This document shows, piece by piece, positions 3,950 to 64,000 of a DNA stretch of 64,000 nucleotides. Positions within the stretch are counted from its first letter, which is position 1. The number at the start of each line of letters is the position of its first letter. The position numbers were made by a program, and so were the translations under genes. The DNA lies in the NCBI GenBank assembly GCA_947476645.1, contig CANJRM010000001.1, positions 1 through 64,000 of the forward strand, written 5' to 3'. Under the pieces are notes generated by a model. That model did not search any database and had not been told where the DNA came from. It saw nothing but the letters and a program-made list of their open reading frames with translations. This DNA comes from Bacteroidota bacterium. Lineage in GTDB: Bacteria; Bacteroidota; Bacteroidia; Chitinophagales; LD1.

Positions 3950-4771
3950 TTATAAATGGTCGGCAGTAAATTTTTCATTCTTCACAAAAAACACCAGTCC
4001 GCTCACAAACAAAACAAACGCTAAAGCGAATGAAACCACAACCTGCATTTCGTTCACCGCGGTGCCTATAAATATCCAGCGATACAGCGCAATCACATTC
4101 GCCACGGGATGGAAATAATAAATGAAGTTGAACTGCTGCGGCACTATCGTTGTCGGATAAAAAACAGGCGTGAGCCATATTCCGAAACCTACCAAATAAG
4201 GAATGATATGATGCAAATCGCGGAAGCGCACCGTGAGCGCACTCAACCAAATCCCTCCCGATAAACCTGTAATGACATTCGCCAGCACAACTAAAGGAAG
4301 AAAAAGAATACGCCACGAAAACGGACAACCCATGAACAGCATCAGTATTACCAAAAGCACAATGGAAATACTAAACTCAATCAGCCCCGTAAGCGCTTTT
4401 GAAAGCGGCAACACCAATCGCGGAAACTGAATCTTCTTAATCAACTGCTGATTATTCATAAGCACCGTGCCCGCCTGACCTATCAACGAGGTAAAGTAAA
4501 ACCAGCCGATAATTCCGGTGAAAGCAAAAACCGAATAAGGCACATCAAGATGCAGCGGCATTACCCTTTGAAAAAAGAAACTGAAAATTATTAAACCCGT
4601 TAGCGGTTGAATCACCGACCACAAAAGCCCGAGGTAAGTTTGTGCATACTGCACCTTCAAATCGCGTTTGGCGAATGTGTAAATCAAATGGCGCACCTGC
4701 CACACATCGCGCAGGTAAGCTGCAACAGAAATCTGTCCCCCCCGAATGGTTTTGTAAATACGTTGTTCCAC
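3950..4771 (-). CDS. ABC-2 type polysaccharide export permease (Wzm-like)
   Basis: FAKRDLKVQYAQTYLGLLWSVIQPL, hydrophobic segments; next to the Wzt-like gene. Confidence 0.9.
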   Translation of the reverse strand: MEQRIYKTIRGGQISVAAYLRDVWQVRHLIYTFAKRDLKVQYAQTYLGLLWSVIQPLTGLIIFSFFFQRVMPLHLDVPYSVFAFTGIIGWFYFTSLIGQAGTVLMNNQQLIKKIQFPRLVLPLSKALTGLIEFSISIVLLVILMLFMGCPFSWRILFLPLVVLANVITGLSGGIWLSALTVRFRDLHHIIPYLVGFGIWLTPVFYPTTIVPQQFNFIYYFHPVANVIALYRWIFIGTAVNEMQVVVSFALAFVLFVSGLVFFVKNEKFTADHL

Positions 4772-4824
4772 TTAGTGTGTAAGGGTAACAAAAATTTTGG
4801 AGAGAAATTTTGCCGCAGCAGGTT

Positions 4825-7659
4825 TTATTTCTTCTTCAACTCCTCAATTTCTTTTCTCAACTCCTCAATCATCTTTTGCTGTTCCTGAATAGCTTTTACC
4901 ATTGGCGCCATCAAATCGTTATAGCGCACGCCATACATACCTGCATCATCCTTCGAAATAATTCCGCTGTGCGTAACGCCTGAAAGTTTAAGTGCTTCTT
5001 CTACTTCCTGCGCCACAAAGCCGTATTCTGTTTTTTTGCTTTCATCGTTATTGCGCACATAAGAAACAGGACGCAGCCTGCCTATAAACTCTAAACCAAG
5101 ATTGGTATTCTCAATATCTGTTTTCCATCTTCTGTCACTCGTTATTGTCCAAGCCACCTGCACACCAGCGTAAGTAATATTCACATCGCCAATGCGCACC
5201 TGATTGCTTGCGGTAATCGAAGGCACCTGCGCATTGTAACCAATAGCAGTGTTATTGCTTCCGGTAGTTAGCAGACTTAGCGCATTGTAGCCATCTGCTG
5301 TATTGTTATTGCCCGTAGTATTTGCCTGAATAGTTCCGTAACCATTTCCGGAGTTCCCGTTTCCTGTGGTGTTATTATAAAGAGCATTGGCTCCGTTACC
5401 TGTGTTATTAATTCCGATAGTATTGAAGTAAAGCGCGTTCTGTCCGTTAGCACTATTGAAACTTCCGGTGCTGTTTGTATAAAGCACGTTGGCTCCGTTA
5501 CCCGTATTGTTCCCTCCGCTTAAGTTCGAGAAAAGCGCATTCAATCCCGTACCAGTATTATTGGTTCCGGTGGTGTTCAACGATAAAGCTCCATATCCTG
5601 AACCCGTATTAAAACTACCACTGATATTCGCCTGCATTACACTCATGCCTATGCCCGTGTTACCATTACCAACCGTATTTACCAAAAGCACTCCTTCGCC
5701 ACACGCAATGTTATAACTGCCGCTTACATTTGCTGCTAAAGAACTTGTTCCTACAGCCGTATTATTTGCTCCCACTGTATTAGCACTTAAAGCACTCTTT
5801 CCTACTGCTGTGTTATTGCTTCCGGTGGTGTTTACATAAAGAGCGCGGTAACCAATACCCGTGCAATAAATATTTGTATTGCTGTTTCCTGCCTGCATAC
5901 CAAAAAATGTAGGCCCGTTAGGGTCTATTCTTCCGGCCTTCTGATTATTTACTCTGATATTAAAAGCAACATTATCTATAGTACCTAAGAAATTTGTGCC
6001 GTCAACTGTTCCCGTATTTCCTGTTAAGCCCCAGGCATTCGAAGCTCCGTTCTGCCCTGTAGCACCAACCGCTCCTGCCGGTCCTGTAGCTCCTACTGCT
6101 GCAGTTGCACCTGTGGCCCCTGTAGCGCCTGAGCCCGTAGCGCCTGTTATACCTATAGCTCCTGTGGCCCCTGTTAAACCAATACTGCCTGTAGCTCCTG
6201 TGGCTCCCGCTCCTGTAGCACCCACTGCGCCCGTGGCTCCTGTGTTTCCTACTGCACCCGTGCTTCCGGTTGCACCTGTGCTACCTATTGCACCTGTTGC
6301 TCCGGTTCCTGTTGCACCAGTTATTCCTATTGCTCCGGTTACTCCTGTAGCGCCTGTTATTCCTGTAACACCCGTAGCACCTACTGCTCCGGTTACTCCT
6401 ATACTACCTGTAACTCCTGTGCTTCCCACTGCACCTGTACTTCCTGTTACACCTGTTACTCCAATTGCTCCTGTTGCGCCTATCCCTGTACTTCCGGTTA
6501 ATCCTATTGAACCCGTTGCCCCTGTTGCTCCAATATTTCCTGTTGCGCCCGTAGCTCCTATAGCCCCTGTTACTCCTATACTACCTGTAACTCCTGTGTT
6601 GCCAACTGCACCCGTGCTTCCTGTAATTCCCATTACACCTATAGCTCCGGTTGCGCCTACTCCCGTGCTTCCGGTTATTCCTATTGCACCTGTTACACCT
6701 GTGCTTCCTGTATTTCCTGTTGCGCCCGTAGCTCCTGCTCCTGTAGCGCCCACCGCGCCTGTCGCTCCTGTGTTTCCTAAAGCGCCTGTGCTACCTGTAT
6801 CACCTGTTGCCCCTGTGGTTCCCGTAGCTCCTGTTCCTGTGCTACCTGTTAATCCAATAGCACCTGTAACTCCCGTGCTTCCTGTACTTCCGGTGGCGCC
6901 TGTGGCACCAACTCCTGTAGCACCTACTGCCCCTGTAAATCCTATAGCTCCTGTGCTACCTGTAGCACCTACTGCCCCCGTGGCACCCACAAAACCCGTT
7001 GGTCCAAATCCCGTAGCCCCTGTTAATCCTATAGCACCCGTTGCCCCTGTTGCTCCTGTACTTCCCGTGCTTCCTGTAGCACCCGTTCCTGTAAGCCCTA
7101 TTGCTCCCGTTGCACCTGTGGCTCCTGTACTTCCGGTTGCACCGGTACTACCCACTGCTCCTGTGACTCCTGTACCTGTGGCTCCTGTAAATCCTATAGC
7201 ACCTGTTGGCCCTGTATGGCCATTAACACCTATAGGACCTTGCGGGCCCGTGGCACTGTTAGCTGCAAAAAGTGCATAAGGCACGCTGATTAACTGCGAG
7301 GTTCCCATGTCGGTATAAACTCCGGTGTTATTGATATCTGTTTCTACCTGTAAAAACTTAGCACCGTTCGACCAGTCCACGGTTCCTAATGACCCCACCG
7401 CACCTATTTGCACATTCACTAAACCAAATTGATTGGTAGTAGTAGTTTGCACTTCGGTAAAAACAGAAGCACCCGTGGCACTAAGCTGATGAATAGTAAA
7501 GCGAATTTTTATAGGGCTGTTGGCAATTATACTGCCGCTGTTATTGCGCACTACTGCCTGATAATTCATTTGTGTAGGCGATTGCGCAAGCACGCCGTTC
7601 ATACTACACACAACACACAACAAGCTAAAGAAAATACAGAGGGGTGAGTTCTTTTTCAA
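4825..7659 (-). CDS. secreted collagen-like repeat protein with 17-aa repeats and C-terminal S74-type (tail-fibre chaperone) domain
   Basis: Signal peptide [26 protein letters not shown]; 127 G-X-Y triplets; twelve 17-aa NTTGxNNTxxGxxALxx repeats; C-terminal [29 protein letters not shown]...[12 protein letters not shown]. Confidence 0.93.
5222..5833 (-). repeat. twelve tandem 51-bp (17-aa) repeats, [17 protein letters not shown] type
   Basis: Translation divides into 12 consecutive 17-aa units; 12*51=612 bp. Confidence 0.9.
6040..7248 (-). repeat. collagen-like G-X-T region, 403 codons
   Basis: 127 triplets plus 11 two-residue G-X interruptions; 127*3+11*2=403 aa matches the coordinates. 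Confidence 0.92.
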
Positions 7660-42883: not shown

Positions 42884-45268
42884 CTACATAGCCGCCATTC
42901 TCTTCGCAGCATTCTGCGCAGAGGTAGAACTGTTAGAGCCGCCAAAATTTACAACCAGCTGAACGGTATATGTTCTTGGCTTATCAGGTTTCGCAACGCG
43001 AATGGCATAATTAGAGTTCATTACATTCTTCACGAGGAAGTTGAGCGACACATTTCTATTGATGTCATATCCTGCTCTCAAATCCCAGATAAAATCTCCC
43101 TTGTTTCGGTTTTCTCTTCGAAGGCGGTTGATATCAGGAATAAAAATTCCGAACACTTTATCTATCTGCCCCATATAGCTATAGTATTGGAACGAAGTGC
43201 CGAGGTGAATTTTATTGATGAAAATAAAATCGAAATCTGCTTTAAACGTGTGCGGGTTTCTATAGCGCAACATACCTGCAGTAACCGAATCCCAATCGTG
43301 GTCAGACTTGGCTGTGGGCAATGAGAAGTGAGTGAACGCATCAAGAATAAAGTTACCGACTTTTGCATTTCTTTTTGCCGCGCCATACATGGTATCGTTC
43401 AAATCTACCCCGTAGAAATATGTGTAACCAAACATGGTGGTAAAATCAACGGGACCGATTTTGCCTTCTCCATAAGCCGAAAGTTCCCAACCAAAAATAC
43501 GAGCGCGCGCCACGTTTTGCGATTGGAAATAGAGATGCGTATTGTAGTTCGTATCCAACTCTACATTGAATTTAAATTCAATCATGTTTCTAAACTCTGT
43601 CCAAAATACCACCGCATCTAAATAACCCAGCCAGTTGCCTATTTTCAAACTGCGCTTGTAACCAAGTTCAGCAGTAAAACCACTCTCTGGTTTAATATGT
43701 GCGTTCGGTCTTATTTCAATTCCTGCTAATTGATACACCACAAATCTTTCACCAATACTCGGCACGCGAAACGACTGACCAAACGATGCACGGATGTAAT
43801 TATACTTTCTGATTTCAAAATTAAATCCAGCACGAAACACGGGAATGGTTGGTGTGATAGCACTATCCAAGCGTACAAATTCTTCGCGCACACCCGCACT
43901 AAACGTTAGCCATTTGTAATTGACTTCGCCTTGTAAAAAGCCGCCACCAAAATCAGCTTTGTGATGACCGAGCGTTCCATCCTTCACAATCCAGTGCTCG
44001 TTGTTTACTCCGCAAAGAATGCGACCAATCTTTCCGAAGTCGTGGCGAAACTGATACTCGGCACGGTAAATCCAGAAATCGGTTTCACCGTCAATATTAT
44101 TTTGCCGATAGATTCTTCCGTAAATTTTATGCTGATTATTTCCTTTATCTACGTACCGAATTTTCGGGTCAATGTAAGCATGAAAGTATCTTTCATTTAA
44201 AGTAACTCCCGAAGCCGAGATATACGGATGGCCTGCATCCTGCCAGTAAAACTGAAATCCGCTTTTGCGATAAAGAAGATTGGCAGAAACTTCAAGTGTT
44301 AAGCGTTTCAACTTGGCAGGCTGCCAACGAATTTTAGAACTGAAACGAGCAAAGTGGTCATACTCCGACTGCAAATGACTTTGGCTTCCCTGCATCATAC
44401 CGCTGATAACAAAATCAACCGCACCGAATTTTTGCTTATGCAAAAAGCTAACGCCCATTGTATTCGGGTTTTGAAAAACCTTTCCATCGCGTTTCCACCA
44501 GCGAAACGAATCAACGGGCGGCTTGTCCATGCCCTCATAAAACACCGTGAACTTGGTAACGGGTGTATCGCGCGCATAAGCTGTTGTTACATTGATAACC
44601 CCGTTCAAAGCCGATGAGCCATACTGCACCGATGAAGCACCTTTGTTCACTTCCATCTGCTCAATATTTTCCACAGGAATAAAAGGCCATTCAATATCGC
44701 CACGGTCAGCTGTCATGAGCGGCATTTCGTCAATCACCAGCATTACACGGCTGCCCGAACCATAAGCGTAACCGCTTCCCCCGCGAATACTCATTTGCCC
44801 GTCAAGCACTGTAACGCCCGGAATTTTTGTAACCGCCTGTTGCAGGTTCGTAATGTTATTACTCTCGAGCATACGCGGCTTTATCACATCTACCGACTGC
44901 GTAGCTTTCTGTAATTTGATCCCCACTTTGTTTTCGCCCACCACAATGGTTTGCAGTTCCACCGGGCCACCACCCATAGTCTTGTTCACTATTTTGAGTT
45001 CGCCATCTTTCACTGTAAAATGCTGGGTATCGGCTTTCATGCCGAGATAGCTGATAACAAGTATCACATCACCCGGGGTAACCTTCAGTTCATAGTTTCC
45101 TTTATCATCTGTAACAGTGCCATTGCTGGGCAACTGCACCACGTTTGCGCCTTCGAGCAACTCACTTGTTTTTCCGTCCTTAATGGTTCCGCGAACGGTG
45201 GCTGTTTGAGCAAATGATATGGAAAGGAACGACAGAAATAATATAATGGAAAGAGAAAATTTATGCAT
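42884..45268 (-). CDS. TonB-dependent receptor
   Basis: VRGTIKDGKTSELLEGANVVQLPSNGTVTDDKGNYEL; plug IPGVTVLDGQMSIRGGSGYAYGSGSRVMLVIDEMPLM. Confidence 0.93.
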   Translation of the reverse strand: MHKFSLSIILFLSFLSISFAQTATVRGTIKDGKTSELLEGANVVQLPSNGTVTDDKGNYELKVTPGDVILVISYLGMKADTQHFTVKDGELKIVNKTMGGGPVELQTIVVGENKVGIKLQKATQSVDVIKPRMLESNNITNLQQAVTKIPGVTVLDGQMSIRGGSGYAYGSGSRVMLVIDEMPLMTADRGDIEWPFIPVENIEQMEVNKGASSVQYGSSALNGVINVTTAYARDTPVTKFTVFYEGMDKPPVDSFRWWKRDGKVFQNPNTMGVSFLHKQKFGAVDFVISGMMQGSQSHLQSEYDHFARFSSKIRWQPAKLKRLTLEVSANLLYRKSGFQFYWQDAGHPYISASGVTLNERYFHAYIDPKIRYVDKGNNQHKIYGRIYRQNNIDGETDFWIYRAEYQFRHDFGKIGRILCGVNNEHWIVKDGTLGHHKADFGGGFLQGEVNYKWLTFSAGVREEFVRLDSAITPTIPVFRAGFNFEIRKYNYIRASFGQSFRVPSIGERFVVYQLAGIEIRPNAHIKPESGFTAELGYKRSLKIGNWLGYLDAVVFWTEFRNMIEFKFNVELDTNYNTHLYFQSQNVARARIFGWELSAYGEGKIGPVDFTTMFGYTYFYGVDLNDTMYGAAKRNAKVGNFILDAFTHFSLPTAKSDHDWDSVTAGMLRYRNPHTFKADFDFIFINKIHLGTSFQYYSYMGQIDKVFGIFIPDINRLRRENRNKGDFIWDLRAGYDINRNVSLNFLVKNVMNSNYAIRVAKPDKPRTYTVQLVVNFGGSNSSTSAQNAAKRMAAM

Positions 45269-45416
45269 GATTTCACATTTGGTTCTCCAATGTGGACGCA
45301 ATGTAAAAAAATATTTTGCGTAAAAAACGCAGTATAAACACAGGTAACCAATGTTTTAGAAAAGAAATGGTTATATAATATAGAACGCGCGCGCGCGAGT
45401 AGTTTGTTTCTGAAGA

Positions 45417-45668
45417 GTTTTGATACAAACTCCGGGAGTTTTGTTCAAGATACGAAACGTTTGTATACAAACGCCAAGTGTTTTGATACAAACGCGAAGC
45501 GTTTTGTTCAATTCTCTTCGCGTTTTGAACAAGATACGAAGTGTTTTGATGCAAACGCCAAACGTTTTGATACAAACTCGAAGAGTTTTGATACAAACGC
45601 CAAGTGTTTTGTTCAAGATGCTTCGCGTTTTGATACAAACGCGAAGAGAATTGAACAAAACTCTTCGA
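45417..45668. repeat. intergenic array of twelve 21-bp units, consensus gttttgatacaaacgcgaagN
   Basis: Twelve consecutive units, each exactly 21 bp, start at 45417, 45438, 45459, 45480, 45501, 45522, 45543, 45564, 45585, 45606, 45627, 45648. Confidence 0.95.
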
Positions 45669-45731
45669 GAACTGTTTGTTTCTGAAAACCGCGCAAACCT
45701 TTCACTTTAGCTAAATTCTTACATTTACTAT

Positions 45732-47318
45732 ATGCGGTGTTTAGGTCTTGCTTTTCTTTTGTGTTTTGGGCTTTTGTGCGAGGCGCAGAAGTATGATAAT
45801 GTGTGGCTGTGGGGTAGATATCCTTCATATCAGGATTCTTCTCAATTTTTTTCCGGAAATGGCCAGGGTGATTTTTCATCTGATAGTCTTCAGGTATATC
45901 CTAAATACCGGAATATGCCATTCATGGCAGCGGCTGGATATTTTTCAGATGAAAATGGAAATCTTTTAATCTATACCAATGGAATGCAGATAAAAGATAC
46001 TACTGGCAGTATCATTCAAAATGGAGATAGTATAAACTATGGTGTGTGGTGGTCTCAGAGTTATTATAACATGACCCAAGGCGCAACAGGATATTACACC
46101 CCTCGTGACATAATAATATTTCACCAACCCGAAAATGATTCTGTCATATTATTAATACATGAACATACAGGAGATGGCCCGAATACTCTGGCTTCAAGAG
46201 TAAAAATGACGAAGGTGATTATTACTCCTCATAACGGATTTAAGGTAACAACCAAGAATAGAATCGTTTCAAACTATCCACCTGCATTTGCAAATTTGGC
46301 GGCTTGCAAACACGGGAATGGTAGGGATTGGTGGGTTTTATTTACACAGACAAATACTAATTGCGTTGTAAAGCTGCTTGTAAATAAAGATACTATAATA
46401 GAATTTGACAGGCAATGTATAGGCGATACAATAGAAGGAGATTGGAGTCTAAAGTCCACCTTTTCTTTAGATGGTACCAAGTTCGGAAGCAGTGACGCTG
46501 TAAAACATGGTACGAATATTTTTGATTTTGATAGATGCACTGGAGTATTATCCAATTATCAGCACTTGAATCCGTTAATCAAACTCGACACTTTTGGAAA
46601 TTATAATGATTACGTAATTACGTTTGATTTTTCACCTAACAACAAATTTCTTTATGTTTTTATGGGACAAATGATATTGCAATATGATTTAGAAAGCCCT
46701 CAATTTCCCAATGACTTTGATACAATCGCTGGCTGGGACACTTTCGTAGATTCAGCAATAGGGCAAATCTATCCGTTCACATATTTTTCATGTACTTATG
46801 GCCCCGATGGAAAGATGTACATAGGTAATGCTGGAGGCCAGCGGTATCTGTGCACTATAAATAATCCCAATGGAAAAGGAGATTTGTGTGACTTTCGAAT
46901 GCGAAGTATTTTTTTGCCAAAAATCTGGACGTATACAACGCCTAATTTCCCCAACTACCGCCTCGGTCGCTTAGCAGGCAGTGCCTGCGATACTGTTTAC
47001 AGCGATGTAAAACCTATTTATACTCAAACGCCCTGGCTAAAAGTTTTTCCTAACCCCGCCACCAATGATGTGCAGTTTGATTACAACTGGATTGAATGGG
47101 AGAAGATTGCGGATTGCGAATTGCAGATTTCGGATTTAGAAGGCAGAGTGGTTTTAAAACAACAGGTGCCTAAATATTCAACGCGACAAAACTTTAGTGT
47201 GAAGGAATTGGCAGCGGGGGTTTATACGGTGGCGTTAACCGCAACCCCTAAATCCCCTAAAGGGGACTTTAACAGCCCACAACCAATAGCCGTTTGTAAA
47301 CTTACGAAGGTGCAATGA
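45732..47318 (+). CDS. secreted protein with T9SS type A sorting domain
   Basis: Signal peptide MRCLGLAFLLCFGLLCEAQ; C-terminal VFPNPATNDVQFDYN...LEGRVVLKQQ...ELAAGVYTVAL...KLTKVQ. Confidence 0.85.
   Translation: MRCLGLAFLLCFGLLCEAQKYDNVWLWGRYPSYQDSSQFFSGNGQGDFSSDSLQVYPKYRNMPFMAAAGYFSDENGNLLIYTNGMQIKDTTGSIIQNGDSINYGVWWSQSYYNMTQGATGYYTPRDIIIFHQPENDSVILLIHEHTGDGPNTLASRVKMTKVIITPHNGFKVTTKNRIVSNYPPAFANLAACKHGNGRDWWVLFTQTNTNCVVKLLVNKDTIIEFDRQCIGDTIEGDWSLKSTFSLDGTKFGSSDAVKHGTNIFDFDRCTGVLSNYQHLNPLIKLDTFGNYNDYVITFDFSPNNKFLYVFMGQMILQYDLESPQFPNDFDTIAGWDTFVDSAIGQIYPFTYFSCTYGPDGKMYIGNAGGQRYLCTINNPNGKGDLCDFRMRSIFLPKIWTYTTPNFPNYRLGRLAGSACDTVYSDVKPIYTQTPWLKVFPNPATNDVQFDYNWIEWEKIADCELQISDLEGRVVLKQQVPKYSTRQNFSVKELAAGVYTVALTATPKSPKGDFNSPQPIAVCKLTKVQ
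47242..47275 (+). repeat. aacccctaaatcccctaaaggggacttt palindromic element inside the T9SS sorting domain
   Basis: Core tcccctaaagggga at 47253-47266; encodes TPKSPKGDFNS within an otherwise canonical C-terminus. Confidence 0.75.
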
Positions 47319-47965
47319 CAGAACAAACACAAATTTTTCGTCAGCGGTTTCGCGAGGATTTTATTACTAAAAACTACTCGGGCAAACTGCATTTTGTTTT
47401 CATTACGCTTTGGTGCGCGGCAGGTATTGGAGTTTGTGTTTTAAATATTCATGAGCCAACCTGGAAACAACTGCTCGTTATTCCGCTTACCTTTCTTTAC
47501 ACCAATCTGTTTGAATATTTCGGGCACCGCTATCCCATGCACCATCGCTACCAACCGCTTAAAGCGGTTTTCAAACGACATACTTTACAGCACCATCATT
47601 TCTTTACCAATGAAAATATGAACTGCGACAGCATCAACGATTTTAAAATCATTCTCTTTCCTCCGGTGCTGCTTATTTTTTTTTCGCTGTTTTTTGTAGC
47701 ACCTGTTTTTGCGCTGGTGTATCATTTCTTTTCGCTCAATGCCGCTTTAATTTATGTGGTTACTACACTCGCTTACTATCTCAATTACGAATGGCTTCAT
47801 CTCGCTTACCACCTACCCGAAACCAATTTCATTTATAAAATTCCGTTTTTGAAAACGCTTCGAAACTTGCACCACGAGCACCACAACCTTAAAGAAATGG
47901 ATAAATACAACTTCAACATTTCGTATCCTGTTTTCGATTTTGTGTTTGGCACGTTGAGGAAATAG
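47315..47965 (+). CDS. fatty acid hydroxylase/sterol desaturase-like membrane protein
   Basis: GHRYPMHHRYQPLKAVFKRHTLQHHHFF; HLAYH; LRNLHHEHHN histidine boxes. Confidence 0.85.
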   Translation: MTEQTQIFRQRFREDFITKNYSGKLHFVFITLWCAAGIGVCVLNIHEPTWKQLLVIPLTFLYTNLFEYFGHRYPMHHRYQPLKAVFKRHTLQHHHFFTNENMNCDSINDFKIILFPPVLLIFFSLFFVAPVFALVYHFFSLNAALIYVVTTLAYYLNYEWLHLAYHLPETNFIYKIPFLKTLRNLHHEHHNLKEMDKYNFNISYPVFDFVFGTLRK

Positions 47966-63949: not shown

Positions 63950-63981
63950 AACAGGCATCCGGCACCGGATGCCTGTTTTTG
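63950..63981 (+). terminator. rho-independent terminator
   Basis: aacaggcatccgg-ca-ccggatgcctgttttt. Confidence 0.92.
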
Positions 63982-64000
63982 TTAGTCTTTAACCTAACGC

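Follow-up and report, generated by a model that had tools for sequence, protein, structure and literature searches.

A 21-bp intergenic tandem array in a freshwater Bacteroidetes genome and a class of arrays alike in unit length rather than in sequence

The DNA analysed here (the window) is a stretch of 64,000 nucleotides from the draft genome of a Bacteroidota bacterium (G000; assembly GCA_947476645.1, contig CANJRM010000001.1). A TonB-dependent receptor gene with a CarbopepD_reg_2 domain (42884-45268, minus strand) and a gene for a protein with a type IX secretion C-terminal sorting domain (Por_Secre_tail; 45732-47318, plus strand) diverge from a spacer that holds a tandem array (45417-45668, no strand assigned). 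A sequence-only reading of the window had described twelve indel-free 21-bp units with sub-modules in both orientations, and our inspection confirmed this; the units, of which GTTTTGATACAAACGCGAAGC is typical, are quasi-palindromic. The tails are reverse-complemented (TTCG-type) in units 5, 10, and 12, as had been claimed, and GAAG-type in the remaining units, while units 2, 5, and 10 have TTGTTCAA as their middle module and units 6 and 12 have TTGAACAA. Also present, as that reading had it, are a perfect hairpin, cttcgcgttt-tgatac-aaacgcgaag (45621-45646), and a 25-bp perfect inverted pair (left arm 45501-45525, right arm 45637-45661), none of these features being assigned to a strand. Tandem Repeats Finder reported periods of 21, 42, 63, and 84. 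The units abut directly, with no unique spacers between repeats, and the view that the array is not CRISPR-like is borne out.

To the left of the array lies a conserved terminus (45387-45416, plus strand), overlooked in the earlier reading, which reads GCGCGCGCGCGAGTAGTTTGTTTCTGAAGA and consists of an alternating GC tract with GAGTAGTTTGTTTCTGAAGA. Its pattern did not occur in shuffled sequence. The right flank (45671-45692, plus strand) can be read as repeating the left terminus word GTTTGTTTCTGAA. Elsewhere in the window, a long minus-strand gene (6137-7189) has internal repeats with a period of 9 and its multiples and is collagen-like by periodicity alone. A second 21-bp array, palindromic and with the consensus GCTGTTAGGCTATAACCTAAC, lies between convergent genes and crosses the window's right end (63979-64000, continuing in G000:C1 to 64183). 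A 21-bp exact match to the window array, CTCGAAGAGTTTTGATACAAA, was seen in a TolC-like outer membrane efflux gene (G000:C2:13414-13447; L008, about 1015-1048); it falls within coding sequence (SKSFDTK), and the rough chance expectation is well below one per genome.

Self-complementarity was compared with two nulls of 120 trials each. In one, the 21 columns were permuted identically across all units, which preserves the repeat structure and the divergence, and in the other the unit order alone was shuffled. The window array folded at -104.8 kcal/mol against a mean of -56.0 kcal/mol for the column-permuted arrays (z -5.3); none of the 120 folded as strongly, and none attained a 25-bp inverted pair. 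The earlier suggestion had turned on inverted pairing beyond that of shuffled 21-bp arrays, and against this null the excess is clear. Among the unit-order shuffles, in contrast, 19 of 120 folded as well (z -1.0) and 17 of 120 had an inverted pair of at least 25 bp. The palindromic nature of the array is real and resides in its units, while the particular 25-bp pair is not special. Because folding is kept when the units are reordered, self-complementarity is a property of the unit and not of one designed long hairpin.

The idea that the array has no other copies was refuted. A second copy with 93% identity over 235 bp lies between another divergent gene pair of the same genome (G000:C119:3814-4086), a congener has a diverged array, and many other arrays were found, as described below. 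The C119 copy shares the left terminus and does not keep the right flank. It has 13 units, and its units 2-4 are near-identical to units 10-12, which suggests that the number of units changes in whole-unit steps. The tails of the two G000 copies differ in a way that, as read from the sequences, looks like other whole units swapped in. The congener's array (G013) comprises thirteen 21-bp units between divergent flanking genes and shares, in diverged form, the terminus GCGCGCG..TTTNTTTCTGAA. Among 399 genomes of the order, the terminus pattern was found in G000, in G013, and once in G333, where the match looks like chance; no other searched family member had it. Restricted in this way, the pattern was dropped as a family marker. 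A sequence-only covariance model of the units (R1) recovered the homologous arrays and noise, and one of its noise-level matches (L065, in G012) proved to be a different 21-bp array.

When the heptad frame was used in a protein-style search, dozens of matches appeared in the genus, and most of the fetched regions were exact 21- or 42-bp arrays with unit sequences of their own. L138, a coding coiled-coil repeat, was left out of the class. Since a heptad query favours seven-residue periods, we next scanned contiguous DNA without regard to period in three genomes of the genus totalling 1.66 Mb (G000, 860 kb; G016, 400 kb; G006, 400 kb) and in two genomes of other genera (G029, 240 kb; G020, 79 kb). 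We set the scan thresholds ourselves, genes were called by a simple ORF method, and repeats inside long ORFs were removed; all genomes are draft assemblies, one per species, so the number of units counted in an array may be in error. Outside long genes, the three genomes of the genus yielded 47 arrays. Their periods were 21 bp (25 arrays), 42 bp (15), and 41 bp (4), and of the remaining 3 arrays two resemble 21-bp arrays that contain indels. A few of the 47 lie in short ORFs, some of which arise from the sequence of the array, and the array at G000_C2:18838 may code for protein. About 21 repeats were within long ORFs, with periods such as 9, 18, 27, 39, 51, 54, 57, 60, 66, 72, and 78, and none had a fundamental period of 21. 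No intergenic 21- or 42-bp array was found in the 320 kb scanned from the two other genera, and the plasmid and phage collections gave no match.

The arrays are unevenly distributed, with 23 in 860 kb of G000, about 21 in 400 kb of G016, and 2 in 400 kb of G006. By extrapolation there are roughly 95 in G000 and 210 in G016, which makes the window array one of roughly a hundred non-coding intergenic arrays in this freshwater Bacteroidetes genome. Our search of the open papers found no description of such a class.

The sequences of the arrays turn over, and few arrays resemble one another. Grouped at E 1e-8, 78 arrays (one counted twice) gave 65 sequence groups, and 55 of the arrays matched no other. 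When 44 arrays were aligned by wraparound to their cyclic consensus units, there were 8874 matches, 2333 substitutions, and 58 indel bases (32 inserted and 26 deleted), the scarcity of indels being a matter of raw counts. About half of the 44 arrays were gap-free. Many of the gaps came in compensating pairs and probably stem from the alignment; the window array, in which none is seen by eye, is a case in point. Units diverge 3-32% from their own consensus while keeping register. Compared with dinucleotide-preserving shuffles, the consensus units of the 44 arrays are palindromic in excess (Stouffer Z 8.3), most strongly in the 42-bp arrays, and palindromicity is absent in many 21-bp arrays. Column variability had a 10.5-bp harmonic of 1.96 times the flat level, against 1.27 and 1.13 for the neighbouring harmonics (Wilcoxon p 0.005), and non-palindromic arrays showed it too (p 0.006). 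As one of ten harmonics inspected, this modest signal counts as supporting evidence only. The flanking genes show no clear preference among divergent, convergent, and co-directional arrangements, and neither common flanks nor evident target duplications were seen at the array edges.

Arrays of 41-bp units stand in spacers at G000:C6:18694-19059, C11:34459-34900, and C11:43352-43740 and at G016:C1:24934-25344, most with a stem and a CTT loop. Compensatory stem changes exceeded chance in one of four array pairs (p about 0.01), namely the C6:18694 array and its relative L276 in G017, in which the stem is kept.

Our comparison with relatives, the named ones being freshwater Bacteroidetes genomes from metagenomes, revealed differences in presence at the same loci. 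L236 and L240, the two closest relatives, have the same neighbours, the TonB receptor gene and a hydroxylase gene, but lack the segment with the array and the T9SS-sorted gene (45339-47320, no strand assigned) between them. L240 has a GIY-YIG-like gene there at about 4400-4900, named from its sequence and not by a family search; it is flanked by TTCGACAGGCTCAGG-type palindromes where the array would stand. Seven other G000 array loci were matched in G007 or G017, and the relative lacked a 21- or 42-bp array. At four of these loci (C11:10213, C14:25380, C9:37531, and C10:19602) both flanks align with 71-92% identity, and the spacer of the relative is just 18-45 bp. C6:18694 stands apart, since the 41-bp array there has a related 41-bp counterpart in G017, next to a related gene. 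No arrays were found in 76 kb of G007 or in 200 kb of contiguous DNA of G017, yet two occur in G017 at targeted loci. These differences reflect either gain in G000 or loss in the relatives. At C11:10213, the best case, the units are 20% off their consensus and the flanks differ by 9%, which suggests that arrays either arrive already diverged or diverge fast.

With 10.5 bp to a turn of B-DNA, 21 bp makes two turns, and no smaller whole number of bases comes back exactly to the helical face from which it started. The occurrence of many sequences with one unit length suggests that spacing along the helix, and not sequence, is kept. Together with the few indels and the helical rhythm of conservation, a fixed lattice without a fixed sequence fits a DNA-level role best. 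The analysis shows a class of non-coding intergenic tandem arrays and their lattice of 21 bp (21 or 42 bp, and 41 bp close to it). We give about an even chance to the full reading, in which this lattice rather than a common sequence defines the class and the arrays act as DNA. Each array would offer phased units, palindromic in many cases, from which hairpins could be extruded or to one face of which a protein could bind; it might, for instance, structure the nucleoid or supercoils from within a spacer. Helical phase would then be the constraint, with the spacing selected for function. Arrays might grow by duplication of whole units, as the near-identical units of the C119 copy hint, and might sometimes spread ready-made, as the 93% copy at a second locus hints. 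The phasing idea has weak points: the 41-bp arrays fit two turns less well, many arrays have no palindromes, and the period could come from a few ancestral arrays. More tentatively, and with somewhat less than an even chance in our estimate, these would be elements conserved in helical spacing alone, with dozens to about 200 arrays per genome, mostly each of its own sequence and with exactly two or four turns per unit, forming a sequence-independent phased chromosome scaffold.

The main rival to the lattice reading is a neutral process with an intrinsic 21-bp step. The arrays are non-coding tandem arrays between genes, as intergenic minisatellites are, and they might be neutral or selfish minisatellites without cell function, made by slippage or template switching aided by hairpins, with a step imposed by the machinery of replication or repair or handed down from a few ancestral arrays. 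The variable presence of arrays between relatives, their unrelated sequences, the lack of a favoured gene orientation, the higher-order periods made of whole units, and the many palindromes all agree with such an origin, which we hold to be a real possibility, though less likely than not. Harder to square with it are units that lie 3-32% off consensus yet stay in register and almost free of indels, and conservation that is modulated at 10.5 bp. REP-like palindromes mobilised by a Y1 (RAYT) transposase would likewise be palindromic, extragenic, and dispersed, and Y1 genes occur in 18 of 18 genomes across the genus. Their numbers, however, do not by eye track array abundance (one in G000; ten in G001, which has few array matches), no REP sequence is common to the arrays, 55 of 78 matching no other at E 1e-8, and the array edges have no common flanks or evident target duplications. 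We regard this origin as very unlikely.

The sequence-only reading had proposed a heptad-repeat peptide, a structured-RNA or DNA-hairpin array, and an inversion-prone switch. Genes for heptad-repeat (coiled-coil-like) peptides with 7 or 14 residues per unit would explain why the units measure 21 and 42 bp, and the class was first reached through a protein search; the window, C119, and G013 arrays all keep the RLYQN frame open, G012 has a similar heptad, and at least one frame is open in 28 of the 44 arrays (a raw count). Nevertheless, all six frames are blocked in the other 16, several frames of the G013 array contain stops, the 3-bp harmonic of column variability is below flat and gives no codon signature, the differences between the two G000 copies mostly alter residues in the RLYQN frame, and no Pfam match was obtained. 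There is a general lack of coding constraint and no single conserved open frame in the class, for which the peptide fails and is very unlikely, even though the window array itself has open frames. Of the second proposal, hairpin-rich DNA stood, both in the window array against the repeat-preserving null and over the 44 arrays, and a specific structured RNA did not. Arrays of structured RNA or transcription terminators would account for the strong folding predicted for the window array on either strand (z -8.4 and -7.4) and for the homologous arrays (z -6.6 and -3.8). The folds differ among the window array and its related copies, though, unit order is immaterial to fold strength in the window and C119 arrays, gene orientation is mixed, and the Rfam matches, mostly to miRNA models, all fall below the gathering score (best 30.6 bits against 101), so we regard this explanation as quite unlikely. 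An invertible regulatory switch, in which a recombinase flips modules in place, would leave modules in both orientations at constant register; but these orientations follow from quasi-palindromic units, invertible modules are not needed, and whole-unit exchange would explain the tail difference between the copies. This proposal we find scarcely credible.

Bacterial repeat families are normally recognised by a common sequence. Unrelated arrays with one unit length (21 or 42 bp) across a genome point instead to a ruler, either a helix-level constraint or a generating process not yet described. Differences in presence at the same locus between close relatives make the birth, loss, and effect of arrays directly testable, and annotation of such regions risks turning open heptad frames into false small proteins.

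Several known systems resemble these arrays in part. Bacterial intergenic minisatellites, such as the mycobacterial MIRU, are, as here, non-coding head-to-tail arrays between genes, and they vary in unit number, as the present arrays may; but each family has one fixed sequence, whereas the present arrays vary in sequence and are fixed in unit length. Plasmid iterons are direct repeats about two helical turns apart, bound on one face of the DNA by a cognate Rep protein. The present arrays have a similar spacing, and one-face binding, a feature of the iterons, is for them a proposal only; iterons stand at a single locus with their Rep, whereas the present arrays stand at many loci and are not known to have such a protein. 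REP, BIME, and REPIN elements, as outlined in the accounts consulted, are also extragenic, palindromic, and dispersed, but share a sequence family and a RAYT, whereas our arrays have spacing alone in common (PMC3116915, PMC3733652). The TAACTGA direct repeats of marine Beggiatoaceae, as far as that account goes, are likewise short, numerous, and intergenic in a single genome, but consist of one fixed heptamer, in contrast to the 21-bp units of many sequences described here (PMC4679880).
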